Source of the DNA: Microbacterium proteolyticum
Lineage (GTDB): Bacteria > Actinomycetota > Actinomycetes > Actinomycetales > Microbacteriaceae
NCBI RefSeq assembly: GCF_014192415.1
Contig: NZ_JACHXY010000003.1
Location: forward strand, 122,227 to 186,226
Length of the DNA stretch: 64,000 nucleotides
Direction of reading: 5' to 3'
Shown: positions 28,187-61,402 of the stretch, piece after piece
How the letters are laid out: each line of letters starts with the position of its first letter
How positions within the stretch are numbered: position 1 is the stretch's first letter
Notes under the pieces: model-generated
What the model saw: only the letters and a program-made list of their open reading frames with translations
What the model was told of the DNA's origin: nothing
Database searches by the model: none
Translations under genes and position numbers: made by a program

Positions 28187-29077
28187 TCACAGACCCTGCG
28201 CGAACTCCTTGAACCACGGACGCAAAGCGGGCCCGAGGTCGTCGCGGTCGGCCGCGAGCTGGACGATCGCCTTGATGTAGTCGACGCGGTCACCCGTGTC
28301 GTAGCGACGGCCGCGGAACACGACGCCGTAGACGCCGCCACCGTCGCCGCCGCCGGTCGCGAGCTCTTCGAGGGCGTCGGTCAGCTGAATCTCGCCGCCC
28401 TTGCCGGGCTCGGTGTGCTCCAGGATGCCGAACACGTCGGGGCCGAGCACGTAGCGACCGATGATCGCGAGGTTGGAGGGGGCTTCTTCGGCCTTGGGCT
28501 TCTCGACGAGCTTCGTGACCCTGACCACACCGTCTTCGTCGGTGGGCTCGACCGCGGCGACACCGTAGAGGTGGATGTGCTCGGGGTCGACCTCCATCAG
28601 CGCGATGACGGTGGCGCCGCGCTTGTCGTACTCCTCCATCATCTTGGTGAGGAGGGGGTCGCGCTCGTCGATGAGGTCGTCGCCGAGGAGCACGGCGAAC
28701 GGGTGATCGCCGACGTGGCTGCGCGCACGGAGCACGGCGTGACCGAGACCGCGCGGCTCACCCTGACGGACCAGGTGGATGTCGGCCAGGTCGGACGAGT
28801 GCTCGACCTTGGCGAGCTTGTCGTCGTCGCCCTTCTCGCGCAGTTTCGCCTCGAGCTCCGGCATGGAGTCGAAGTGGTTGGCGATGTTGTTCTTGTTGCG
28901 GCCGATGATGATCAGGACATCATCGATGCCGGCAGCGGTGGCCTCTTCGACGACGTACTGGATCGCCGGCTTGTCGACGACCGGGAGCATCTCTTTGGGC
29001 ATTGCCTTCGTGGCGGGAAGGAAGCGAGTACCGAGACCGGCGGCCGGGATGACGGCCTTGAAGGGCTTATGAGGCAT
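28187..29077 (-). CDS. galU: UTP-glucose-1-phosphate uridylyltransferase
   Basis: 296 aa. It makes UDP-glucose from UTP and glucose-1-phosphate for cell-envelope and trehalose synthesis. The nucleotide-binding signature AVIPAAGLGTRFLPATKAMP and PVVDKPAIQYVVEEA are intact, as are GEPRGLGHAVL, FAVLLGDDLI and LVEKPK. Two start codons compete, ATG 29083 and ATG 29077. The second was preferred because a TAAGGT -10 element (29084-29089) ends exactly 6 nt before it, giving a leaderless mRNA; the first ATG would abut the -10. Confidence 0.93.
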   Translation of the reverse strand: MPHKPFKAVIPAAGLGTRFLPATKAMPKEMLPVVDKPAIQYVVEEATAAGIDDVLIIIGRNKNNIANHFDSMPELEAKLREKGDDDKLAKVEHSSDLADIHLVRQGEPRGLGHAVLRARSHVGDHPFAVLLGDDLIDERDPLLTKMMEEYDKRGATVIALMEVDPEHIHLYGVAAVEPTDEDGVVRVTKLVEKPKAEEAPSNLAIIGRYVLGPDVFGILEHTEPGKGGEIQLTDALEELATGGGDGGGVYGVVFRGRRYDTGDRVDYIKAIVQLAADRDDLGPALRPWFKEFAQGL

Positions 29078-29083
29078 GGGCAT

Positions 29084-29139: not shown

Positions 29140-29736
29140 ATGGCGGACCGCATCGAGCAGGCCAAGCGCGCGCTTCGCGCCGACCTGCGCGAACGTCGGC
29201 AAGCGGTCTCCGCACACGCCCGTGAGGTTGCCGAGGCAGGAGTGAAAGCTCAGCTCGACGCCCTCGTCGGCCGTCTCGGCGCCCGCAGCATCTCCTGCTT
29301 CCTCTCGACGCCGACCGAGCCCGGCACCCACGCCTTCGTCGCCGGCGCGGTCGCCCGCGGCATCCGGGTGCTCCTTCCCATCACGCGCGAGGACGGCCTG
29401 CTCGACTGGACCGTGGCCACCCCCGAGGCCGAGATCGCCGAGGGCCTGTTCGGCCTGCCCGAACCCGTCGGCGACGTGCTCGGGCCCATCGCGGTGAACG
29501 ACGTCGATCTGCTCGTCATCCCCGCCGCCGCCGTCGACCAGCGCGGGATGCGACTGGGCTGGGGACGCGGCTACTTCGACAAGACCCTCGGCTCGATGGA
29601 GAAGTGCCCGCCGGTCTACGCCGTCATCTTCGATTCCGAGTACATCGACGACGTGCCCCGCGACGTGCACGACCAGCCCGTGACGGGTGTGGTCACCCCC
29701 ACGCGGACGCTGGCGATCGCCGCCCCCACCGCCTGA
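29140..29736 (+). CDS. 5-formyltetrahydrofolate cyclo-ligase
   Basis: 198 aa. It converts 5-formyl-THF and ATP to 5,10-methenyl-THF. The N-terminal helix KRALRADLRERRQAVS and the diagnostic C-terminal GMRLGWGRGYFDKTL are present, followed by the VTPTRTL end. The ATG at 29140 has no ribosome binding site but a close upstream TAGACT, as in leaderless genes. It is followed 17 bp later by an FmdB-like gene and mscL, a gene order I associate with actinobacteria. Confidence 0.9.
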   Translation: MADRIEQAKRALRADLRERRQAVSAHAREVAEAGVKAQLDALVGRLGARSISCFLSTPTEPGTHAFVAGAVARGIRVLLPITREDGLLDWTVATPEAEIAEGLFGLPEPVGDVLGPIAVNDVDLLVIPAAAVDQRGMRLGWGRGYFDKTLGSMEKCPPVYAVIFDSEYIDDVPRDVHDQPVTGVVTPTRTLAIAAPTA

Positions 29737-29753: not shown

Positions 29754-30035
29754 ATGCCCACCTACTCCTATGCCTGCAAGCAGTGCGGTCACCGCTTCGA
29801 CACCGTGCAGTCCTTCTCGGACGCCGCTCTCACCGAGTGCCCGGAATGCGGCGGCGAGGTGCGCAAGCAGTACGGATCGATCGGGGTCACCTTCAACGGG
29901 TCGGGCTTCTACCGCACCGACTCGCGCACGTCGTCGTCGTCGAGCGCGTCGGGCGCAAGCGGTGGCGACTCGTCCTCATCCACGACATCATCGAAGTCGG
30001 AAACGAAGACGTCCGCCCCGTCCTCGGCCTCCTGA
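29754..30035 (+). CDS. FmdB-family zinc-ribbon protein
   Basis: 93 aa. The N-terminal 55 residues are the FmdB/CxxC_CxxC_SSSS domain: [20 protein letters not shown] then ECPECGG, giving two CxxC zinc knuckles, and [15 protein letters not shown]. The rest is a low-complexity Ser/Thr/Ala tail, from which the family takes its name. Function is unknown; it is named after a regulator of formamidase genes. The ATG at 29754 follows GAAGGA. Confidence 0.88.
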
Positions 30036-30069
30036 GCCGCGGTCGGCGCGGCAGAAGGAGAGCCAGCGC

Positions 30070-30489
30070 ATGATCAAAGGATTCAAGGAGTTCATTCTCC
30101 GCGGGAACGTCATCGACCTCGCGGTCGCGGTCGTCATCGGCGCCGCGTTCACCGCGGTCGTCAACGCGATCGTCACGGCGCTCATCAACCCGTTGATCGA
30201 GATCTTCTACGTGCCGAACGAGAACGGTGAGTTCGGACCGAGCTTCACCGGCATCTACGGCCAAGAGGTGGTGTTCCCGCTCGGCGGTCTGCTCACCGCC
30301 GTCATCAGCTTCCTCGCCGTTGCGGTGGTGGTCTACTTCGTGTTCGTCTACCCGATGAACCACTGGAAGGCCCGCGCCGCCGCACGCGCCGGGGTGGCCG
30401 CCGCGGCATCCGATGAGCCCAAGCTGCCGACCGAGCAGGAACTGCTGGTGCAGATCCGCGATCTGCTGGAGCGCCAGAACAAGCAGTGA
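30070..30489 (+). CDS. mscL: Large-conductance mechanosensitive channel
   Basis: 139 aa, the normal MscL length. The N-terminal amphipathic helix [27 protein letters not shown] leads into TM1 with the pore-lining pattern. An extracellular loop ([18 protein letters not shown]), TM2 ([20 protein letters not shown]) and a cytoplasmic bundle helix ([17 protein letters not shown]) follow. It is an osmotic emergency valve in the plasma membrane. The ATG at 30070 follows GAAGGAGAG. It is the last gene of the cyclo-ligase-fmdB-mscL run; a hairpin terminator follows. Confidence 0.95.
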
Positions 30490-30549: not shown

Positions 30550-30912
30550 TCAGTAGTGGGGCGGGACGTCGCCGAGCATGCGGTCGTCGTTCGGACCGGA
30601 TGCCGCGGGCTTCGACCCCCGACCCCGTTCGCGGTCGTCGGCGGGCGCAGGCTCGGCCGTCGTTCCCGGCGCGGGAAGCAGCCGAGCGCGCCGCGATCCG
30701 CGCACGCGGACGACGGGCTGACGCGCGGGCGACGCCGTGGGGGTACTTGAGGCGTCGATCGGCTCAGCCATCTGAGGCGTACCCGGGGTGCCGGCGGCGT
30801 CGACGAACTCCTTCTTCCCCGACGCGGGCACGGCAACGGCCTCTGAGCCCGTCGACGGGACCGGGACGACACGTTGGACGTCGCCCCCGGCGGCATCCGG
30901 AGTATCGGTCAT
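30550..30912 (-). CDS. Small hypothetical protein downstream of the helicase-like gene
   Basis: 120 aa, Pro/Ala/Ser-rich and mostly disordered, with no membrane segment. It starts MTDTPDAAGGDVQRVVPVP, contains a basic patch VVRVRGSRRARLLP near the middle and ends with DDRMLGDVPPHY, which looks like a conserved C-terminal tail. The ATG at 30912 is 7 bp after the stop of the helicase-like gene, so it is probably its cotranscribed partner. Function unknown. Confidence 0.6.
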   Translation of the reverse strand: MTDTPDAAGGDVQRVVPVPSTGSEAVAVPASGKKEFVDAAGTPGTPQMAEPIDASSTPTASPARQPVVRVRGSRRARLLPAPGTTAEPAPADDRERGRGSKPAASGPNDDRMLGDVPPHY

Positions 30913-30919
30913 CGGGCGA

Positions 30920-33900
30920 TCAACCGGGCAGGTCGAGGGGCTCGGTCGTCGACTCGGGCGCACCGGCTTCGGGCACCGCTCCCAGCAGTTCGGCGATCCG
31001 CGACGCGACCCCCGCGGGGTCGCTGTACAGGTCGAACGCGTGCACGCGGACGTAGTGCCAGCCCAGGCGTCGGAGGATCTGCGGGCGCAGCCGGAGCGTC
31101 TCGCGCAGCGACTCCCCGATCGTCTCGGGATCGCTCTCGGCGACGACGGCCTTGCCCTTGTAGCGCGCGACGAGCGGCAGCAGACCGCGGTAATCGACGT
31201 CGACCTCGACACCGAGGCGGCGGAGCTCGCGCGCCAGGGCGCGGGTGAGGGGGTCGGCGAGGTCTTCGAGGCGGCTCTCGCGGCCGCGCGACGCGACGTT
31301 GCCGAGGATGCCCATGAGGGTGGCCGCACCGTGCTCGAGGCGGCCGTCGTCGAACGCCGACGGCCGGATCGACGACACGATCACCATCGAGCGGCGCGCG
31401 CGGGTCATGCCGACCGTCAGCAGGCGCTCCCCGTCGGGCGTGGACAGGTCGCCGAAGTCGCTGAGCACGCGGCCATGGCGGGTGAGGCCGAAGCCGAGCG
31501 AGAACACCACGCGGTCGCGGCTCTCGGCCACCGACTCTTCGAGGGTGAGCACGGCGAAGGGCTCCGCGGCATCCCGCGAGACGAACTCCGCCACGTCGGA
31601 CCGGCCCGCCAGCGCGGCCACGACCGAGGCGCGCACGCGCTCGGCGTGGCGACGGCTGGCGGTGACGACCATGAGCGACTCGGACGCGCGGTTGACCGCG
31701 TGCTCCACGACGAGCGTGACGACGCGGGCGACTTCGGCGTCGGGACTCTCGACCGCACCGCTCACGGGATCGGGTGCACCGACGCCACCCTCGACGTAGT
31801 CGACGCTGAGGCTGCCGCGTCCGAGGTACGAACCGGCCCACGGCAGCGACACGATCTCGCCGCCGTAGAACGCGTCGTTCACCAGCTGCGAGAGGTCTTC
31901 GCCACCGGCGCGGTAGCTGCGGGTGAGCGTCTCGACCGGCAGCAGCTCGGCGATGCGCTCGAAGACGGAGATCTCGTCGAACGGCACCTCGTCGGTGTCC
32001 TCGGGTGCCGGGGCGATCGACGCACTCACGCGGAACGGCGTGGGCTTCTGCACCACGGGGTCGCCGAAGAGCACGACCTGGCGCGCCCGACGCAGGGCCG
32101 GCGCCGCTTCGGCGAGGCAGAGGGCCGCGGCATCCGCGATGACCACCACGTCGAAGGCCAGATCCTGCGGCACGTCGGGGACCTCGTAGGGCGAGGCGAG
32201 CCACACGGGCGCCAGCGTGCGCAGCAAGATGGGCGCGGCATCCGAAATCTCGTGCGCGGTGTGGAGTCCGTCCTTGAGGGCGCGCTTGAGGGCGGCGGCC
32301 TCGTCGGCGTGATCGACGATGCCGATGCGCCACTGCGTCGCCAGGTGCGCGGCGAGCAGCGGCCCCGCAGCCGCGGCGTGCGCCTCGTCGACGAGGCGGA
32401 AGTCGCGCTCGAGGCGGTCGACCACGCTCGTGTTCGCGCCCAGCAGCGCGCGATCGGTGCGCAGCAGGTGCTCGAGCGCGGACTGCCACCACGCGAACTC
32501 CAGCTCGGCTCCGACCCGCTCCTCGGGCACGTGGCGCACCGAGAGCTCGACGAGCAGCTGCTCGAGGCCGAGACGGGCGAGCTCGGAGCGCAACTGCGCG
32601 CGCTCGACGAGGTTGTCGAAGAAGGTGGACTCGGCGGCGAGTCCCGCCAGCGTCCGCACGAGGCGCTGCACCGGCAGCGTCGCCAGGCGCTCGGAGCCCT
32701 GACGGCCGAGGATCTGGTCGAGTTCGCCGAGGAGGGCGTCGGTGCGCTGCCACGCGACGTGGACGTCGGCCAGCCCCAGGGGCACCTCCGGCGCGACACC
32801 GGCTTCGACCACGCGCTGCCACTCGGTGCGCTGCTGCTGGATGCGCACGAGCGCCTCGTACATGTCGGGCACGTGCACGCCGGGGCGCACATACTCTTTC
32901 GACAGGCGCTTGAGGCGACGGCGGTTGGGCCCGCTCATCGGCGACGCGTCGCGGCGCGGCGAGTGCGCGTCGATCAGCTCGCCGAGCGGACGCTCGAAGA
33001 CCGTGGGACTGAAGCGGTCGAGCGACTCGCGGATGCCCTGCAGAAGCTTCAGATAGGCGCCCAGCTCCGACACGGTCTGGAAGGGACGCATCCGCGTCTT
33101 GGCGATCAACTCGTATCCGCGCTCGAGCAGACGCGGCACCTCGTGGGCGTGGAGCTTTCCGGCGAGGTCGTGCGCCGCACGCGCATCTTCGGTGCGTGTG
33201 AAGCTGACGCCGTACCAGGGCGAATCGTCGGGCCCGAAGCGGAACTCCCCGAGACGAGCGGCCATCGCGAGGGCCCGGGCCGCCGCATCGCGCCGCCCGG
33301 CGAGCTTCTCGAGCGTGGCGAGATCGAACCGCGCCTCGGTCGAGGGGGCGGGAGAGACGGATGCCAGCGAGGTGAGGGCGCGCAGCACGTCGAGAGCCGA
33401 GACGCCCAGGGCCAGGTGCGGCTCGGTCACCGCCGAGCGGTAGTCGCGAAGCACCGTGCGCAGCCGTACCAGCGCGTCGTCGATCTCGGCGACCTTCGGC
33501 TGCTCGGCCTTCTCGTTGCGGCTGATGGCACGGATGAGATCCCGGCGCACGTGGTTCGGCGAGACGGCGAGACCGGTGAGGCCGACCCCGGCGAGGCGGT
33601 GGCGGATGCCGTCGAGCGTCGACCGGCGCGCACTCACGACGAGAACGCGCTTGTTGTCGCGGACGAGCTGGCCGACGGCATTGATCACGGTCTGGGTGCC
33701 GCCCGTGCCGGGCAGGGTGTGCACGGCGAGCGAGTGACCGGCACCGATGCGGGCGAGCACGCGCTCCTGCTCGGCGTCGGCATCGAGCAGCAGCGTGTCG
33801 GCCGCGGGGGTCCGCTCATCGGGGCTGACGATCACGGGGTCGTCGCGGCGCACCGTGACCCGCGCCCGGTCGTCGTGGTGCCCGGCGAGAGCGTTCAACA

Positions 33901-34624
33901 GCGGGTCGTCCAGGTGCTGGGTGTCGCGGGCCATGCCCGACGCGACATCGGCGAACGACGAGATCACCAGGCGCGGGTGCACGACGAAGGTCGGCACGTG
34001 CGTGGTCAGACGGCGGATGTGGTCGATGACCGGCTGCGGCTTGAAGACGCCCTGGTCGTAGGCGAGGCCGGCCAGGGCCGCGCTGTCGATCTGGATGCCG
34101 AGGTGCGTACGGAATGCGCGGGCGAGCTCGGGGTTCATCACGAACGCGCCGTGCAGCTTCAACTCGAAGTCGCCGTGGTGGCGACGGATGGCGAGCGGGC
34201 GCAGCAGCACGGGGGCCGACCACTCCACTCCCCCGATCTTCCAGGCCGACAGACCCACGGCCAGGTGCACCGGCTCGAGACCGCGCGCGGTGCGCAACTC
34301 GACGTTCTTCGCGGTGATGCGCTCGGCTGCCAGGCGCGCCGTGCGCAACGCCACCTCGTCGCGGAAGAGATTGGACAGCATGGTGGCGCGCCCCGTGATG
34401 AACTGCGGGAGCGAGCCCGGGTGCGCCTTGGTGATGTCGATCCCGGCGTCGCGCGCGTCGTCGAAACGCAGCAGGGTCGACCGTCCCCCCAGGGCCGCCG
34501 CCTCCGCCCGGATGCGGTCGCGCTCGGGGTCGGCGACGTGGCGGACCACGATGCCGGGCTCCGACAATCGCAGCTCGCCCGGATCGACGGATGAACCCGT
34601 CTCGTCTCCGTCGGTACCGCTCAC
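30920..34624 (-). CDS. Large superfamily-1 helicase-like protein with degenerate ATPase sites (MTES_1575 type)
   Basis: 1234 aa. The layout follows Dna2/NAM7 (Upf1-like) helicases fused to a C-terminal REase_MTES_1575-type fold. The P-loop near residue 305 reads LPGTGGTQTVIN: the Walker A lysine is Gly. The DEAx box near residue 830 reads VVIADAAAL instead of IIDEAS. Later motifs survive: GDPVVQKPTPF, SYRAGGEDLSQLVNDAFYGG, and the motif VI region LLTVGMTRARRSMVIVSS. The nuclease-like tail (GWHYVRVHAFDLYSDP, about 1190-1210) lacks the usual IECDG. It may therefore be a conserved non-catalytic nucleic-acid-binding protein. GTG 34624 has GAGG upstream; a 120-aa gene follows 7 bp later. Confidence 0.8.
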   Translation of the reverse strand: MSGTDGDETGSSVDPGELRLSEPGIVVRHVADPERDRIRAEAAALGGRSTLLRFDDARDAGIDITKAHPGSLPQFITGRATMLSNLFRDEVALRTARLAAERITAKNVELRTARGLEPVHLAVGLSAWKIGGVEWSAPVLLRPLAIRRHHGDFELKLHGAFVMNPELARAFRTHLGIQIDSAALAGLAYDQGVFKPQPVIDHIRRLTTHVPTFVVHPRLVISSFADVASGMARDTQHLDDPLLNALAGHHDDRARVTVRRDDPVIVSPDERTPAADTLLLDADAEQERVLARIGAGHSLAVHTLPGTGGTQTVINAVGQLVRDNKRVLVVSARRSTLDGIRHRLAGVGLTGLAVSPNHVRRDLIRAISRNEKAEQPKVAEIDDALVRLRTVLRDYRSAVTEPHLALGVSALDVLRALTSLASVSPAPSTEARFDLATLEKLAGRRDAAARALAMAARLGEFRFGPDDSPWYGVSFTRTEDARAAHDLAGKLHAHEVPRLLERGYELIAKTRMRPFQTVSELGAYLKLLQGIRESLDRFSPTVFERPLGELIDAHSPRRDASPMSGPNRRRLKRLSKEYVRPGVHVPDMYEALVRIQQQRTEWQRVVEAGVAPEVPLGLADVHVAWQRTDALLGELDQILGRQGSERLATLPVQRLVRTLAGLAAESTFFDNLVERAQLRSELARLGLEQLLVELSVRHVPEERVGAELEFAWWQSALEHLLRTDRALLGANTSVVDRLERDFRLVDEAHAAAAGPLLAAHLATQWRIGIVDHADEAAALKRALKDGLHTAHEISDAAPILLRTLAPVWLASPYEVPDVPQDLAFDVVVIADAAALCLAEAAPALRRARQVVLFGDPVVQKPTPFRVSASIAPAPEDTDEVPFDEISVFERIAELLPVETLTRSYRAGGEDLSQLVNDAFYGGEIVSLPWAGSYLGRGSLSVDYVEGGVGAPDPVSGAVESPDAEVARVVTLVVEHAVNRASESLMVVTASRRHAERVRASVVAALAGRSDVAEFVSRDAAEPFAVLTLEESVAESRDRVVFSLGFGLTRHGRVLSDFGDLSTPDGERLLTVGMTRARRSMVIVSSIRPSAFDDGRLEHGAATLMGILGNVASRGRESRLEDLADPLTRALARELRRLGVEVDVDYRGLLPLVARYKGKAVVAESDPETIGESLRETLRLRPQILRRLGWHYVRVHAFDLYSDPAGVASRIAELLGAVPEAGAPESTTEPLDLPG

Positions 34625-34824
34625 GGCACCGTCCTCAGCTCGCCACACACCTGCCAGACTAAGCCGGGCACCTGTGGATCGCTTGCAGTGGGGGCGAGTT
34701 TCGCGGTAATCAGCGACACGCCGCCCCACCGGCGGTTCCTCCCCAGTGGGCAGGTCACCGGCATCCTCCCCCGATTGCCCGGACGCCCCGGGCGTCGGCG
34801 TTCGCGCCTCGTGAAGATGGGCCC

Positions 34825-35364
34825 ATGAACAGAGTCACCAGCACCGAATACGACAGCCCCGTCGGGCCGGTCCTCCTCACCTTCGTCGACGACGCCCTCG
34901 TGCGCCTGCACGTCGCCCACGACGGCATCGACATCGCCCGTGCGGAGATCGCCCAGCGACTGGGGGTGCTGCCCGACCCCGACCCCTCTCCCGGCTCCCA
35001 CCTCGCCCGTCAACTCGACGAGTACTTCGACGGCGCGCGTCGGTCGTTCGAGGTGCCGCTCGATTGGCGTCTGGTGCGCGGGTTCACGCGCGACGCGCTC
35101 GAAGCGTCGCAACAGATCCCGTACGGAGAGGTCGCCTCGTACGGGGAGGTCGCCGCCCTCGCCGGGGCGCCGCGCGCGGCCCGGGCCGTGGGCACCGCGT
35201 GCGCGTCGAGTCCGTTCTCGATCGTCGTGCCGGTGCATCGGGTGGTGCGTGCCGACGGATCCATCGGAGAGTACGGCGGTCATCCCGAGGTGAAGGATTT
35301 CCTGCTCTCGCTCGAGAACGACACCGTGCTCGGAGAAGGGCTGCGGATCGGCGCGGGGACGTGA
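34825..35364 (+). CDS. Alkyltransferase-like protein (MGMT homologue, active-site Cys replaced by Val)
   Basis: 179 aa with both the N-terminal Ada/Ogt domain and the C-terminal DNA-binding domain of methylated-DNA-protein cysteine methyltransferases. The helix-turn-helix region PYGEVASYGEVAALAGAPRAARAVG carries the Arg-finger position. The catalytic PCHR motif reads PVHR, with Val137 encoded by GTG at 35233-35235. GSIGEYGGHPEVKDFLLSLE follows normally. It cannot transfer alkyl groups to itself by the usual mechanism. By analogy with alkyltransferase-like proteins (PWHR), it may flag O6-alkylguanine for nucleotide excision repair. It is monocistronic and divergent from the helicase-like gene. 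Confidence 0.85.
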   Translation: MNRVTSTEYDSPVGPVLLTFVDDALVRLHVAHDGIDIARAEIAQRLGVLPDPDPSPGSHLARQLDEYFDGARRSFEVPLDWRLVRGFTRDALEASQQIPYGEVASYGEVAALAGAPRAARAVGTACASSPFSIVVPVHRVVRADGSIGEYGGHPEVKDFLLSLENDTVLGEGLRIGAGT

Positions 35365-55430: not shown

Positions 55431-58400
55431 TCACCGGAAGTCTCGCGACGCGTGGGCCACTCCCACACGCAGATCGGTGAATCCGTCGGCGACCACGTTG
55501 GTCACGCCCTCGATCGAACGTTCGAGCATGCCGCGCACGATCAGCGCGGGCGACTCGCGGGCGACCCGGCGATACCTGTTCCACACCCCGACCGAACAGA
55601 TGATGTTCATGAGTCCGTGCTCGTCTTCGAGGTTGAGGAACGTGATGCCGGATGCCGTGGCCGGTCGCTGCCGATGGGTGACGAGCCCCGCCACCTCGAT
55701 GCGCCGGTCGGTCTCGAACGTGCGGAGTTCGCGCGAGGTCAGCACGCCGCGCGCATCGAGCGCCGACCGGAAGTGGGTGAGCGGGTGGTCGTCGGCCGAG
55801 AGACCCGTCGCCCAGAGGTCGGATGCGAGGATCTCGTAGCTCGACGGGTCGGTGAACAACGGTGGCTGCACGGCGACGAGGGAATCGGGAAGGAATTCGG
55901 CGCGGTCCAGTGCCGCCGAACCCGACAACCAGATCGCCTCGCGCCGCGTGTGCCCGAAGCACTCGAACGCCCCCGCCGTCGCGAGCGCCTCGAGCTGCGC
56001 CGTGACCAGTCCGGTGCGACGCACCAGGTCGCGGAGGTCGCGGTATGTGCCGCCGCGCTCGCGTTCGGAGACGATGCGCGCAGCCACTTTCGTGCCGATA
56101 CCGGTGACTCCGGCGAGGCCGAGGCGCACGGCGAACCCGCCGTCACGACGGTGCGCCAGGGTCTCGTCGGGCTCCGACGGGTCGAAGTCGCCGGTCGGAG
56201 GCTGCCGTGCGTGCGCGCACGCGTCGAGCCCGGTCGGTGGCCCCATGCCCCGGGGCTGCCGCGGCGCCGCACCACTCGCAGCCGCTCCGCCCGCGCCCTC
56301 GCCGCTGGATCCCGCCCCGCCCGCGCCCGCGCCGCTCGTTTCTGTGCCGCGCGATGCCTCGGCGGTATCCCTCCCCCCGGCATGCACCCCCGCGGCGCCC
56401 CTCCCCCCGGCATCCGTCTGCGCAGCCTTCGCCCCTCCGTCGACCGCCTCGAGCGTCGCTTCGACCCCCGACCGCGACAGGTCGGGCCGGCGCACCACCA
56501 CGCCGTGCCGCCGCGCATCGGCGGTCAGGGTCGCGGGCGAGTAGAACCCCATGGGCTGTGCGCGCAGCAACCCCGCGAGGAACGCCGCCGGATAGTGCAG
56601 CTTGATCCACGAGCTCGCGTAGACCAGCAGCGCGAACGACAGCGAGTGCGACTCGGCGAAGCCGAAGTTCGCGAACGCCTGGATCTTGGCGTACAGCTCG
56701 TCGGCGACCTGACCGACGAGGCCGTTCTCGGCCATGCCGGCGTACAGCGTCTCGCGGAGTGAGTCGATGCGCTCCAGGCCCCGTTTGGACCCCATGGCCC
56801 GACGCAGCAGGTCGGCGTCTTCGGCGGAGCAGTTGCCGATGGCGACGGCCATCTGCATCAGCTGCTCCTGGAACACCGGCACCCCCATCGTGCGTTCCAG
56901 CACCGGCTCGAGCTTGGGGTGTACGTAGGTGACCTTCTCTTGGCCGAGTTTGCGCCGCACGAACGGGTGCACGGCTCCGCCTTGGATGGGTCCGGGACGG
57001 ATCAGGGCGATCTGCACGACCAGGTCGTAGAACTTGCGCGGCTGCAGGCGGGGCAGCAACCCCATCTGCGCGCGTGACTCCACCTGGAACACCCCGATCG
57101 AGTCGGCCCGGCACAGCATGTCGTACACGGCCTTCTCTTCTTTCGGCAGGGTCGACAGCTCCCACTGCTCGCCGGTGGCATCCCGGATCAGGTCGAAGCA
57201 GTACTGCAGGGCCGCGAGCATGCCGAGTCCCAGCAGGTCGAACTTCACCAGCCCCATCCACGCGGCGTCGTCTTTGTCCCACTGGATGACCGTGCGGTCC
57301 TCCATGCGCGCGTGCTCGATGGGCACGACTTCGCCCACCGGCCGATCGGTGAGCACCATGCCCCCGGAATGGATGCCGAGGTGCCGCGGCGCTTTCAGCA
57401 GCTCCGACGCGAACTCGATGACCTGATCGGGGATGTCGTGGTCGCCTCCGGTCTCGAGCGTCGCCCCCCAGCGCTCGACCTGCTTCGACCAGGCATCCTG
57501 CTGACCGGGTGAATGTCCGAGGGCCCGGGCCATGTCGCGCACGGCGTTCTTGGGGCGGTACTGGATGACGTTGGCCACCTGCGCCGCCCGTTCACGCCCG
57601 TACTCCCGGTAGACCCACTGGATGATCTCTTCCCGGCGGTCGGAGTCGAAATCGACGTCGATGTCGGGCTCCTCGTCGCGCAGGCTCGACAGGAACCGCT
57701 CGAACGGCAGCTTGTAGAAGATGGAGTCGACCGCGGTGATGTCGAGCAGGTAGCAGACCGCGCTGTTGGCGGCCGACCCGCGACCCTGGCACAGGATGCC
57801 GCGACGGCGGGCCTCGGCCACGATGCCGTAGACGATGAGGAAGTACCCCGGGAAGTCCTTCATCTCGATGACGCCGAGCTCGCGTTCGATGCGGCGGCGG
57901 TCGTCGTCGGAGAGATCCGGGTACTTGCGGGGCACGGCCTCCCACACCAGGTGTCGCAGCCACGACATGGGCGTGTGCCCCTCGGGGACCTTCTGTTTCG
58001 GAAGCGCGGGCTTGGCGCGGCGCAGCGGAAAGGCGATCTCGTCTGCCAGAGTCACGGTGCGCGCGACCGCGCCCGGGTAACGCGCGAACCGCGCCGACAT
58101 CTCGACACCCGAGCGCAGGTGCGCGCCGGCGTGCGCGGGCAACCACCCGTCGAGCTCGTCGAGACCCCGGTTCGCCCGTACCGCAGCCACGGCGGCGGCG
58201 AGCAGTTCCTTCTGCGGAGCGGCGTAATGCACGTTGTTCGTGGCGAGGGTCGGCAGCCCGCGCTCGGCGGCGAGCGCCGCCAACACGTCGTTGCGACGGG
58301 AATCGAGGGGGTCGCCCTGGTCCATCAGTTCGACGTAGACGGCCTGCGCACCGAAAAGGTCGACGAGGGTGTCGAGTTCACGCGCGGCCCCTGCCGGTCC

Positions 58401-59027
58401 CTCGGATGCCAGCGCCTGCCGGACCGCTCCCTTACGGCATCCGGTGAGCACGGCCCAGTGCGGATCGCGGGGACCGCCCGCCCGCTCGGCGAGATCGGCG
58501 AGGTCGTAGACGGGGCGCCCCTTCTCGGCGCCGGTCAGTTGCGCGTGGGTGATCGCGGCGGCGAGACGGTGGTACCCCTCTTCTCGCCGCGCGAGGACGA
58601 GCAGGTGCGAACCCTCGGGATCGGCCGTGCCGCTCTGCGGACCGCCGAGTCCCAGCGACAATTCCGCCCCGAACACGGTCTTCACCGTGCGGGCCTCGGC
58701 CGCCTCGGCGAAGCGCACGATGCCGTAGAAACCGTCGTGGTCGGTGAGGGCGAGGGCGTGCAGGCCCAGGCGCTCGGCCTCTTCTACGAGCTCTTCGGGC
58801 GAGGAGGCGCCGTCGAGGAACGAGTACGACGAGTGCGCGTGCAGTTCGGCGTACGGGATCGTGTCGTCGGGGCGTTCGATCGACGGCGGCACATACGCCC
58901 CGCGCTTGTGCGACCAGGCCGGGCTGTCGCCGCCGTCGCCGTTCGGCGGCGTGCCGGTCGGCCGACGCGCGTCGCTGAGCAGGCGCTCCAGCTCCGACCA
59001 CTTCACCGGGGGGTTGGTCCATCCCAT
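55431..59027 (-). CDS. dnaE2: Error-prone DNA polymerase III alpha subunit DnaE2 (ImuC)
   Basis: 1198 aa. The N-terminal PHP domain starts PYAELHAHSSYSFLDGASSPEELVEEAERLGLHALALTDHDGFYG (about 57-101). The polymerase core has EEPDIDVDFDSDRREEIIQWVYREYGRERAAQV with the catalytic Asp pair, and GRGSAANS. Helix-hairpin-helix (GVTGIGTKVAARIV) and OB (IEVAGLVTHRQRPATASGITFLNLEDEHG) domains end the protein. Residues about 862-945 are a Gly/Ala/Ser-rich insertion not expected in the family. It performs mutagenic lesion bypass with ImuA' and ImuB. The gene is 99 bp after imuB in the same direction and probably cotranscribed. Confidence 0.94.
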   Translation of the reverse strand: MGWTNPPVKWSELERLLSDARRPTGTPPNGDGGDSPAWSHKRGAYVPPSIERPDDTIPYAELHAHSSYSFLDGASSPEELVEEAERLGLHALALTDHDGFYGIVRFAEAAEARTVKTVFGAELSLGLGGPQSGTADPEGSHLLVLARREEGYHRLAAAITHAQLTGAEKGRPVYDLADLAERAGGPRDPHWAVLTGCRKGAVRQALASEGPAGAARELDTLVDLFGAQAVYVELMDQGDPLDSRRNDVLAALAAERGLPTLATNNVHYAAPQKELLAAAVAAVRANRGLDELDGWLPAHAGAHLRSGVEMSARFARYPGAVARTVTLADEIAFPLRRAKPALPKQKVPEGHTPMSWLRHLVWEAVPRKYPDLSDDDRRRIERELGVIEMKDFPGYFLIVYGIVAEARRRGILCQGRGSAANSAVCYLLDITAVDSIFYKLPFERFLSSLRDEEPDIDVDFDSDRREEIIQWVYREYGRERAAQVANVIQYRPKNAVRDMARALGHSPGQQDAWSKQVERWGATLETGGDHDIPDQVIEFASELLKAPRHLGIHSGGMVLTDRPVGEVVPIEHARMEDRTVIQWDKDDAAWMGLVKFDLLGLGMLAALQYCFDLIRDATGEQWELSTLPKEEKAVYDMLCRADSIGVFQVESRAQMGLLPRLQPRKFYDLVVQIALIRPGPIQGGAVHPFVRRKLGQEKVTYVHPKLEPVLERTMGVPVFQEQLMQMAVAIGNCSAEDADLLRRAMGSKRGLERIDSLRETLYAGMAENGLVGQVADELYAKIQAFANFGFAESHSLSFALLVYASSWIKLHYPAAFLAGLLRAQPMGFYSPATLTADARRHGVVVRRPDLSRSGVEATLEAVDGGAKAAQTDAGGRGAAGVHAGGRDTAEASRGTETSGAGAGGAGSSGEGAGGAAASGAAPRQPRGMGPPTGLDACAHARQPPTGDFDPSEPDETLAHRRDGGFAVRLGLAGVTGIGTKVAARIVSERERGGTYRDLRDLVRRTGLVTAQLEALATAGAFECFGHTRREAIWLSGSAALDRAEFLPDSLVAVQPPLFTDPSSYEILASDLWATGLSADDHPLTHFRSALDARGVLTSRELRTFETDRRIEVAGLVTHRQRPATASGITFLNLEDEHGLMNIICSVGVWNRYRRVARESPALIVRGMLERSIEGVTNVVADGFTDLRVGVAHASRDFR

Positions 59028-59126: not shown

Positions 59127-60671
59127 TCAGTCATATCGCCCCTCCGCCCGCCACTCGCCCTCTTCGACCACGAGCAGCCAGGCGCCGCCATCGGCGTCGA
59201 TCACCTGGAATCGGTGCGCCCGGCGTGCCCGCAACGGGTCCCACCCGCGCTCGCTGATCGGCCAGGGTCCCGCCCATTCGTGGATGCGACGACGCTGCCC
59301 CGCCGTCTCGAGCACTGCGGGCGGGGCGCTCAGCACGTCTCGCTCCCCCACCGTCACGGGGGCGCCCCCGACGTCCGTCACGCCGACCAGGCGTGGTTCG
59401 GGGTAGACCGTGGCCGGCAGGGGGTCGGGAAGGCTGCCGGGCCAGGGCCGCGCCCGATCTTTCGCCGTGACGGCTCGATCGCCCCACGGCACGTTCACCT
59501 GGCGTTCGGCGAGCCATCGCCCGCCGCCGACGACCGGCGTCACCACGGCACGATGACCGAGCATGGCCTGCACGCGCGACAACGCGTGATGCACGCGTTC
59601 GTCGGGGCCGGCGCCGAAGAGTCCTTTGGCGTGGTGGGCTGCGGCATCCACCGCTTCGGGTTCGATGTGCACACCGGCCACACCGCTGCCGAAGATGCCC
59701 TGCGCGTCTTCGGCGAGTTGCCACCGCACCCGGTCGACCACGGCGGCGGCGTCGAACGACCCCGGATGCAACCAGACGCGTTCGCTGCGCTCGGCTCGTT
59801 CGCCGGTGAGGACGACGCGCAGTTCGGTGCACACGAGGTCGTGCGCCCCCAACCCGGCGATGAACTCCTCGGCCGCCACGCGCATGCCGAAGGCGATCTG
59901 ATCGGCGAGCTCGAGCGGGGGTTCGAAGGCGACGTCGCGGTGCAGTTCGGGTGGAGGCGTCCGCGGCTGCACCGGCTGCGAGTCGAGCCCTCCCGACAGG
60001 GCGTGCAGCCGCACCCCACGGCCACCGAAACGCTCCCGTACCCGCTCGACCGGAAGCGCGGCCAGGTCACCGAGCGTGTGCACGCCCAGGCGTGAGAGCA
60101 GGCTCCCGAACTCGTCGTCGTCGAGCGTCGCGACGGACAGGGGCGCCAGGAACGCGCCGGCTTCTCCCGATGCGACGATCCGCACCGGGTCGTCGACGCG
60201 CGCTGATCGCGCCGCCTGCTCGGCGGTGAAGACGCCGTCGGCGACACTCGCCCGCACGTCGCTGAAACCGACGTCGTCGAGCAGACGGATCAGCGTGCGA
60301 GCCGCCTCGCGTTCGCCGCCGTAGTACCGGGCCGGTCCTCGCGCTTTCAGCGCGCACAGCCCGGGTCGCACGACCTGCACTCCGGGGGCGTACTCCTCGA
60401 CGCGCGCGACGACGGGGGCGAAGGCGCGCGCGTCGCGCACGGGGTCGGCGGGCACGACCTGCAGCACCGGGCACAGGGCCTGTGCGTCGCGGCGCTTCTG
60501 GCCCCGACGCACTCCCTGCGCCCGGGCCGCCCACGAGCACGCCACGACGATGTTGTTCGCGAACACCGCGACGGCGGCATCCGGCTGCGGGGGCGAGACG
60601 GCCTCGTGGGCGAACGCCGTGATCGGCCAGTCGGGAAACCACAGCACGAGGCTGCGCGTGGGCGCCTGCAT
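59127..60671 (-). CDS. imuB: ImuB, inactive Y-family polymerase subunit of the mutasome
   Basis: 514 aa. The Y-family fold is present (LVLWFPDWPITAFAHEAV, ARFAPVVARVEEYAPGVQVV-like segment, LGVHTLGDLAALPVERVRERFGGRGVRLHALSGG). The catalytic carboxylates are missing: the usual DxD position is PDWP and SxDE is SVADGVF. ImuB acts as a hub linking DnaE2 and the clamp. The ATG at 60671 (MQAPTRS) overlaps the imuA stop as TGATG; a GTG one codon earlier is possible. Confidence 0.92.
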   Translation of the reverse strand: MQAPTRSLVLWFPDWPITAFAHEAVSPPQPDAAVAVFANNIVVACSWAARAQGVRRGQKRRDAQALCPVLQVVPADPVRDARAFAPVVARVEEYAPGVQVVRPGLCALKARGPARYYGGEREAARTLIRLLDDVGFSDVRASVADGVFTAEQAARSARVDDPVRIVASGEAGAFLAPLSVATLDDDEFGSLLSRLGVHTLGDLAALPVERVRERFGGRGVRLHALSGGLDSQPVQPRTPPPELHRDVAFEPPLELADQIAFGMRVAAEEFIAGLGAHDLVCTELRVVLTGERAERSERVWLHPGSFDAAAVVDRVRWQLAEDAQGIFGSGVAGVHIEPEAVDAAAHHAKGLFGAGPDERVHHALSRVQAMLGHRAVVTPVVGGGRWLAERQVNVPWGDRAVTAKDRARPWPGSLPDPLPATVYPEPRLVGVTDVGGAPVTVGERDVLSAPPAVLETAGQRRRIHEWAGPWPISERGWDPLRARRAHRFQVIDADGGAWLLVVEEGEWRAEGRYD

Positions 60672-61402
60672 CACCCCACCGCCCGTACGGGGTAAGCCGG
60701 CACCGAATACGCGTCGAGTTCGCGTGGCATGAGACGTTCGGCGGGTGCGCCCAGCAGCTCGATCGACCCGTCGGCGGCCGGCAGCAGCATGCGTGCGCGG
60801 CGGGCGTTGGGCGAACGCCGGCTGCTGACCGAGACCGTCAGTTCACGACCGGCGAGATACCCGTTGCCCTGACCGAGCCCCGACCACTGCGGGTCGGCCA
60901 CGTCGATCACCGCTTCGGCCTGCGGCCAGGCGCCCTGCACGAGCAGCACCGACCCGCGGTCGCGCAGGCGCGCGGCCAGGCGCGTGGTCTCGGCACCCCC
61001 GCGAGCCGCCGTGGAACCGGCCGGCGGGCGCACGGCCACCACCGGCAGCACCTCGGTGATCGTCGCGGTCACCGCGAGCCACCGCGGCCCCGGATCGGGG
61101 ATGAAGACGAGCCGGTCGAGATCGAGACCGTACTTCTCAGCGGCTTCGGCACCCAGTTCGGGCATGCCGATCACTCCGCACCACGCCCCGTCTTGCGAGG
61201 GTCGGGCCATGAGCGCGAGCAGCAGCGAGGACGAGCGGGCGAGGGCGTAGGCCGAGCCCGGACGCAAACCGCCTCCGGGCAGCAGCGGCGAGAACGCGGG
61301 ATGCGTCGGGAGCACCGGGGCGTCCATACGACGGCCCTGCATGCGCTCGAGGCGATCACGCAGCGCATGGATGTCGGGTACGGCCTGTACCTGGTCTCTC
61401 AT
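60671..61402 (-). CDS. imuA: ImuA', RecA-like mutasome component
   Basis: 243 aa. RecA-fold protein of the actinobacterial ImuA' type: ALRDRLERMQGRR start, PGGGLRPGSAYALARSSSLLLALMA in the P-loop position without a proper GxxxxGKT, and VVAVRPP, VLLVQGAWPQAEAVIDV core strands. It is needed for DnaE2-dependent mutagenesis. The ATG at 61402 was preferred because GAGGG lies 5 nt upstream; the GTG at 61420 has none. A LexA box begins 25 bp before the start, so the cassette is SOS-controlled. Confidence 0.85.
   Translation of the reverse strand: MRDQVQAVPDIHALRDRLERMQGRRMDAPVLPTHPAFSPLLPGGGLRPGSAYALARSSSLLLALMARPSQDGAWCGVIGMPELGAEAAEKYGLDLDRLVFIPDPGPRWLAVTATITEVLPVVAVRPPAGSTAARGGAETTRLAARLRDRGSVLLVQGAWPQAEAVIDVADPQWSGLGQGNGYLAGRELTVSVSSRRSPNARRARMLLPAADGSIELLGAPAERLMPRELDAYSVPAYPVRAVG

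Follow-up and report, generated by a model that had tools for sequence, protein, structure and literature searches.

The stretch of DNA analysed here (the window) comprises 64,000 nucleotides (nt) of Microbacterium proteolyticum (NCBI RefSeq assembly GCF_014192415.1, contig NZ_JACHXY010000003.1, positions 122,227 to 186,226 of the forward strand), and the gene under study encodes a helicase-like protein with altered ATPase motifs, called the pseudo-helicase below. It occupies positions 30920..34624 on the minus strand and specifies 1234 amino acids (aa), with a predicted UPF1-like superfamily 1B (SF1B) helicase fold and a C-terminal Vsr/REase_MTES_1575-like domain. The open reading frame (ORF) runs from a GTG at 34624 to the stop codon at 30920 without a frameshift; its start codon is unsettled because the longest open frame begins upstream, at the GTG at 34729. 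A small partner gene (30550..30912, minus strand) begins with an ATG 7 nt past the helicase stop codon. Its 120-aa product is of low complexity and ends in GPNDDRMLGDVPPHY, with a C-terminal PPHY (30553..30564, minus strand) that is PPHW in most relatives. The combination of a near-universal, motor-less protein and a tiny partner suggests that the protein is now a binding platform and no longer a motor.

The P-loop of the window protein reads LPGTGGTQT (residues 304-312; 33689..33715, minus strand). Aligned with motif-intact orthologues, its GTGG spans residues 306-309, and Gly309 takes the place of the usual lysine of the superfamily 1 (SF1) pattern GxGK[ST]. The Walker B segment FDVVVIADAAA (residues 824-834; 32123..32155, minus strand) is degenerate as well: the Asp and Glu positions of the SF1 DExx box are Ala830 and Asp831. 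The window protein thus has neither the Walker A GxGK[ST] nor the Walker B DE of an active SF1 helicase. The reference motifs of the intact orthologues were GPPGTGKSQT, FDVVIFDEASQ, GDERQLPPT, QGDERD and TR[AS][RK]; against these, motif V was also found to be altered (VAESRD instead of QGDERD, with loss of QGDE). GDP..Q, SYRAGG and the motif VI sequence TRARR (residues 1074-1078; 31391..31405, minus strand) were all present, and TRARR was found in 30 of 30 aligned loci of the genus. These observations bear out the original prediction, made from the window's letters alone, which had read a Lys-to-Gly change at about residue 309, an IADAAA in the DEAx box at about residue 830, and a full-length frame with the later helicase motifs kept. 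In the Pfam search, AAA_11, AAA_12 and REase_MTES_1575 all scored below threshold on the window protein, and one further match was at chance level.

To place these changes, homologues were counted at three ranks. All 39 genomes of the genus had a match, as did 149 of 150 of the family Microbacteriaceae and 193 of 198 across the order, the last figure counting any homologue at E <= 0.001. GTGGTQT was present in 30/30 aligned genus loci (30 of the 39 genomes with the gene were aligned), and lysine occupied the P-loop position in 0 of the 148 readable genomes among the 150 sampled from the family, the census leaving out G132 (no match) and G161 (a weak fragment). At the DNA level, the pattern for PGTGGTQT matched 101 of the 150 family genomes; 100 of these sites lay inside listed protein matches, and the remaining one (G092) was on a contig whose protein match was not among the matches listed. 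For the other 49 genomes, 47 loci were read and none had lysine; the position held Ala, Ser, Leu, Arg, Val, Tyr, Ile or Thr, or Gly in an altered loop. The shared alteration in 30/30 genus loci and 148/148 readable family genomes led us to reject a sequencing error or a local loss.

In an alignment of 131 Microbacteriaceae rows, in which the window protein is counted twice, the lysine position was Gly in 83, Ala in 20, Tyr, Val, Ser and Leu in 6 each, Ile in 2, Arg in 1, Thr in 1 and Lys in 0. The lysine-less P-loop stretch, LPGTGGTQTVIN, ranked fourth in conservation among non-overlapping 12-aa stretches. The Walker B Glu position was Asp in 129/131 rows, and the pair that is Ala-Asp in the window protein was hydrophobic-Asp across the family. 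Conservation of the P-loop exceeded that of 99.7% of alignment windows in Microbacteriaceae, 99.1% in Micrococcaceae and 98.6% in 17 intact rows. On the Cellulomonadaceae-type branch it reached only the 69th percentile, so that the loop is not frozen there. The frozen loop in Microbacteriaceae and Micrococcaceae suggests that it has kept a ligand or structural role, and the Cellulomonadaceae-type branch shows that the locus can persist without a conserved P-loop.

The gene is under purifying selection. The ratio of nonsynonymous to synonymous substitution rates (dN/dS) between the window gene and six close relatives ranged from 0.024 to 0.085 at dS 0.24 to 0.69. With four more distant members of the genus it was 0.22 to 0.29 at dS 0.60 to 0.81, for which we suspect saturation of dS. 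Moreover, several genomes as small as 0.9-1.8 Mb have retained the gene (among them G053, G119, G048 and G051), and internal stops occurred in few of the listed matches (G065, G087, G095, G168 and G252). The proposal that selection maintains a protein without a working motor was therefore supported, and retention in genomes of about 1 Mb suggests an important function in these actinobacteria.

The neighbouring genes provided syntenic markers: MscL (30070..30489, plus strand, a Pfam match within the ORF 29770-30489), a zinc-ribbon protein that we take to be FmdB-like (29754..30035, plus strand), 5-formyltetrahydrofolate cyclo-ligase (5-FCL; 29140..29736, plus strand) and a nucleotidyl transferase, presumably GalU (28187..29083, minus strand). 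On the other side, a divergently oriented 6-O-methylguanine-DNA methyltransferase gene (34825-35364, plus strand) adjoins the pseudo-helicase. We compared 128 loci: 40 from other families of the order, picked among the order-wide matches, 80 named loci, which were the best 80 of 571 confirmed in the scan, and 8 from the class-level search. The only requirements for calling a locus intact were a Walker A lysine and a Walker B DE. The counts refer to loci and do not equal independent species, because some loci were present twice (L126/L170 and L128/L185 are identical tree rows). At least one of MscL, FmdB, 5-FCL and GalU was found in the fetched stretch, mostly to about 8 kb on each side, of 100 of the 128 loci. 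Among these 100, 15 were intact, 83 were not, and 2 had the 5' end cut. The intact ones came from Knoellia, Pedococcus, Flexivirga, Humibacillus, Intrasporangium and relatives. Since intact and altered forms share the gene order, they are orthologous. The original prediction had treated intact GKS/DE orthologues as evidence of a local loss; such orthologues do exist at this locus in Intrasporangiaceae-type genomes, but the 148 readable family genomes all lacked the lysine, and GTGG was conserved throughout the aligned genus loci.

The alterations differed between lineages. Roughly two thirds of Microbacteriaceae had Gly in place of the P-loop lysine, and the remainder had Ala, Leu, Ser, Val, Tyr or another residue; Micrococcaceae (Arthrobacter, Sinomonas, Nesterenkonia, Tersicoccus) mostly had Gln at this position; and in Cellulomonadaceae, Promicromonosporaceae, Jonesiaceae and Ruaniaceae the loop was dismantled (GSDVAGT and similar). 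Furthermore, Nostocoides sp. Soil756 and a Phycicoccus sp. (L143, L192) carried GTGASQT and EEAS at the same locus, nested within the intact Intrasporangiaceae. When the N-terminal part of an intact orthologue (P0002, from L107) was used as query at class level (E <= 1e-5), 22 of 148 genomes matched, comprising 10 of 10 members of the order and 12 of 138 others; 10 of those 12 were all 10 sampled genomes of one family outside the order, f38. Six f38 loci were read (L236, L237, L238, L241, L242 and L243). All six had Arg for Lys and MscL/FmdB nearby, and four had PPHW.

A FastTree tree of 135 rows was built with the motif columns excluded and midpoint-rooted, leaving out L109 and L146, whose 5' ends are cut. 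The intact/not-intact state required 3 changes on this tree, and the starred branches force 3. The window shared a starred clade with the named Microbacteriaceae loci. Family names given to coded groups follow named rows that are identical to theirs or nearly so (L096 lies beside Arthrobacter globiformis L150, and L126 is identical to Occultella L170). All three changes are probably losses, because distant relatives (including the Dehalococcoidia, Chlorobiales and Candidatus Uabimicrobium rows) keep intact motifs. There were also 19 intact relatives without a synteny marker, including copies in Herbiconiux, Arthrobacter and Microbacterium. The copies in these three genera (L175, L177 and L178) were intact and had neither markers nor PPHW; they are perhaps separate defence copies, the sequence of L178 ending 29 nt past its helicase-like gene.

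The 120-aa downstream product, which the original prediction had offered for an interaction search, proved the most productive lead. It had no Pfam or NCBIfam match. Frames ending in PPH[WYHF] near the helicase stop were searched in 129 loci (the window, 8 of the genus or family, 40 of other families and the 80 named loci). The partner was a separate ORF in 81, fused to the helicase C-terminus in 25 and not found in the other 23. The separate proteins had 50-158 aa (median 79), and 30 of the 81 overlapped the helicase gene by 4 nt, with starts assigned by a simple rule. In the 106 tails the residue after PPH, itself fixed by the search, was W in 92, Y in 13 and F in 1. The PPHW unit adjoined or was fused to the helicase in 96 of the 100 marker-bearing loci, whether the helicase motifs were intact or not. 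Among the loci without a marker, it occurred in 1 of 19 intact relatives (L134, of the Intrasporangiaceae-type clade) and in 4 of 9 altered ones; 4 of the 23 unmarked loci scored as negative (L123, L133, L178 and L199) end less than 100 nt after the helicase stop, so that PPHW would be undetectable there. A random-window check gave PPHW in 160 of 6400 windows, which is an upper bound and no clean background because the windows were drawn from the same loci, true genes included.

Of the 148 class genomes, 3 matched the strict DNA pattern W[LF]x[DE]xRPPHW, and each of them belongs to the 10 order members of that sample. With 7 of those 10 missed, the pattern is a poor guide to other orders; PPHW does occur beyond the order, in f38 genomes. 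Two Intrasporangiaceae loci (L135:11947-12321 and L136:12061-12441) have a PPHW protein with a different, more regular-looking N-terminal part. A literature search on PPHW-type motifs (RPPHW, KPPHW, VPPHW) returned no biological match. The conserved low-complexity PPH[WYF] partner, linked or fused to the helicase-like gene, is new here. Because the unit accompanies intact and altered helicases alike, we infer that their shared function belongs to the pair and is separate from ATP hydrolysis. The partner offers a handle for finding the machine that the protein serves.

The REase_MTES_1575-like domain (residues 1165-1213; 30986..31132, minus strand) was a sub-threshold Pfam match (PF18741, 21.4 bits against a gathering cut-off of 38.2), and its first catalytic Asp, which is replaced, would lie just upstream. 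The original prediction held that the nuclease motif was gone. This was right for the first Asp (in the IDLAV of intact relatives), which is Pro in the window protein, and for the G and Y after E-x-D. The E-x-D itself (AESD) is still present, and a complete loss of the motif was thus unsupported as worded. In Microbacteriaceae rows, the window included, the first Asp was lost in 23/23, E was kept in 21/23 and D in 23/23. All three acids D...E-x-D were found in 16 of 17 intact Intrasporangiaceae-type rows and 15 of 16 other intact rows; D had become P and E had become L in all 17 Cellulomonadaceae-type rows, and f38 had all three acids in 0 of 6. The pattern differs by lineage, and the loss of the nuclease residues was therefore separate from that of the motor.

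The AlphaFold2 model of residues 36-1234 (36 rows) had a mean predicted local distance difference test score (pLDDT) of 87.7 and a predicted template modelling score of 0.76. Its best structural match was IGHMBP2 (4b3g; Z 20.4, root-mean-square deviation 4.0, 488 aligned residues), and further relatives were UPF1 (2wjy, Z 19.5), Dna2 and Sen1. The model places two RecA-like domains in the UPF1/IGHMBP2 arrangement, as expected of a UPF1-like SF1B fold. A natural fusion was also modelled (L194, Arthrobacter sp. H41, last 1200 residues, with the N-terminal part left out), and its mean pLDDT was 82.

Over its helicase and REase parts the protein is homologous to the anti-phage helicase-nucleases PDC-S37 (PADLOC), ProA (NF058533) and Hhe (NF042953). 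P0002 scored 820 bits with PDC-S37, 801 with ProA, and 554 (NCBIfam) or 400 (PADLOC) with Hhe. The window protein scored 280, 278, and 130 (NCBIfam) or 99 (PADLOC). These values lie below the curated NCBIfam cut-offs of 1500 bits for ProA and 2000 for Hhe, as do the 801 and 554 bits of P0002; PADLOC gives no cut-off for PDC-S37. Unlike these systems, the window protein is encoded by a fixed core gene, comes with a PPHW partner and lacks ATPase motifs. MTES_1575 of Microbacterium testaceum is described as a giant HEPN-transglutaminase-SF1 helicase-Vsr REase-winged helix-turn-helix protein (PMC3710099). Like the window protein, it has a Vsr-type REase domain behind an SF1 helicase; the window protein, however, is much shorter, has no HEPN or transglutaminase domain in the Pfam result and gives only a sub-threshold REase match. 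A large core DUF4011 gene in a Pseudomonas aeruginosa defence hotspot is reported to have a conserved small hypothetical gene on the same flank (PMC10250203), an arrangement similar to that of the helicase/PPHW pair. Literature searches returned nothing on PDC-S37 or ProA antiphage wordings and, among the matches listed, no title or abstract opening on the pseudo-helicase gene.

The original prediction had also suggested that the protein might inhibit, or work with, an active helicase-nuclease of the MTES_1575 type. This part was unsupported: a motif-intact query found no second homologue in the window's own genome at E <= 0.001. The genome had three further REase_MTES_1575-like matches below the Pfam cut-off, in frames of 333-453 aa. 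With P0001 as query, 1 of 39 genus genomes had another homologue (G007; 28% and 26% identity, 2196-aa frame). G016 also gave two matches, but the second (93% identical) stems from the same gene, whose two ends lie on different contigs.

The motor residues have disappeared, whereas the predicted fold, the locus and the PPHW unit persist; selection would therefore be maintaining something other than motor activity. The reading we prefer, with a probability of about 50%, is that a domesticated defence-type helicase-nuclease has become a non-hydrolysing scaffold that clamps or scans nucleic acid and recruits through its PPHW tail. The ancestor would have been an SF1B helicase-nuclease of the defence type represented by PDC-S37, ProA and Hhe, which was fixed next to MscL-FmdB-5FCL-GalU and entered the core genome along with the small low-complexity PPHW partner. 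The residues for ATP hydrolysis would then have been lost in most lineages, three times or more on the tree, with the fold, locus and PPHW unit retained through those losses. By analogy with RecC and AddB, whose helicase domains are dead, the helicase body most likely binds RNA or DNA passively, as a clamp or a scanner, and the PPHW tail may recruit a further partner to it. RecC has a dead nuclease domain that is described as a hoop for single-stranded DNA (PMC1185551), and the dead SF1 helicase domains of AddB and RecC have been proposed as the parts that recognise Chi (PMC4824097). The likeness is a helicase-like domain, plus a nuclease-like one in RecC, that acts as a DNA scanner or hoop without catalysis. 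RecC and AddB, however, are UvrD-type subunits of motor complexes, whereas the best structural matches of the window protein are UPF1-like and no gene for a motor was found beside it in the window.

Several observations weigh against this scaffold reading. "Intact" and "dead" are defined by motifs alone, and unusual ATPases can function without the canonical lysine. TRARR, with its motif VI arginines, is still conserved in Microbacteriaceae, which is odd for an ATP-less site. The root and some deep branches of the tree are weak, several long branches are unsure, and the three changes may equal one gain and two losses. The three nuclease acids are all present in 22 of the 30 Micrococcaceae rows, and to judge from these residues the protein of this family may still be a nuclease. 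G132, the sole family genome in which no match was found, also belongs to the small ones (1.7 Mb, 82% complete). Moreover, the PPHW unit was undetected in 4 of the 100 syntenic loci (L091, L110, L242 and L243), and the 0.9-Mb genome G053 (L249) had none within the stretch read. In the model of the natural fusion the tail had no confident placement, the last two ten-residue blocks having pLDDT of 53 and 59, and the model therefore does not reveal the PPHW ligand.

Other explanations were weighed against the same evidence. A nucleotide switch without hydrolysis, in which the lysine-less P-loop would still hold a nucleotide or some other phosphate ligand that gates the protein as a sensor, would account for the near-invariance of the PGxGxTQTxxN frame and of the Asp at the Walker B Glu position in Microbacteriaceae while the lysine position varies, and for the likewise frozen loop of Micrococcaceae, mostly with Gln. 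We regard it as doubtful, since the Cellulomonadaceae-type branch keeps the locus and the PPHW unit with a dismantled loop at the 69th percentile. That the nearest named families are defence proteins would fit a protein that is still anti-phage, as an ATP-independent decoy or sensor with the PPHW tail perhaps as trigger. Defence genes are usually patchy, but this gene is syntenic, near universal in the family and single-copy in nearly all genomes of the genus, which makes a present anti-phage role unlikely.

The protein might also be a subunit of a larger repair complex whose motor is another protein, the role of RecC or AddB. Degeneration of helicase and nuclease folds is of the same kind there (PMC1185551, PMC4824097), but no helicase or nuclease family was found among the ten scanned neighbouring ORFs of the window. 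This counts only weakly against the idea, the flanks of the other loci having been searched for the window markers only, and we consider it improbable. A silent relic of a defence system in slow decay was already disfavoured and is highly improbable: the kinship to PDC-S37, ProA and Hhe and the lost catalytic motifs would suit it, but a match in 149/150 family genomes, dN/dS of 0.02-0.09, retention in small genomes and the scarcity of internal stops do not.

A broader form of the scaffold reading can be put forward only tentatively. A defence helicase-nuclease would have been domesticated order-wide as a near-universal housekeeping factor; its motor would have been switched off repeatedly, its lysine-less P-loop would be a frozen ligand site in two families, and the PPHW peptide, in cis or in trans, would be an adaptor to an important machine. 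Pseudohelicases have been known singly. Deinococcus PriA (PMC4504706) and Utp25 (PMC9539457), conserved helicase relatives described as pseudohelicases, belong to helicase families other than that of the window protein. At the present locus, motif-intact, recently altered and long-dead states occur in syntenic position across many families. Comparing such natural variants of one locus makes it possible to tell a non-catalytic role apart from catalysis.

Elsewhere in the window, a DNA polymerase III alpha type protein of 1198 aa (Pfam; 55431-59027, minus strand) was found beside a 515-aa ORF (59127-60674), and the two perhaps form a DnaE2/ImuB-type cassette.

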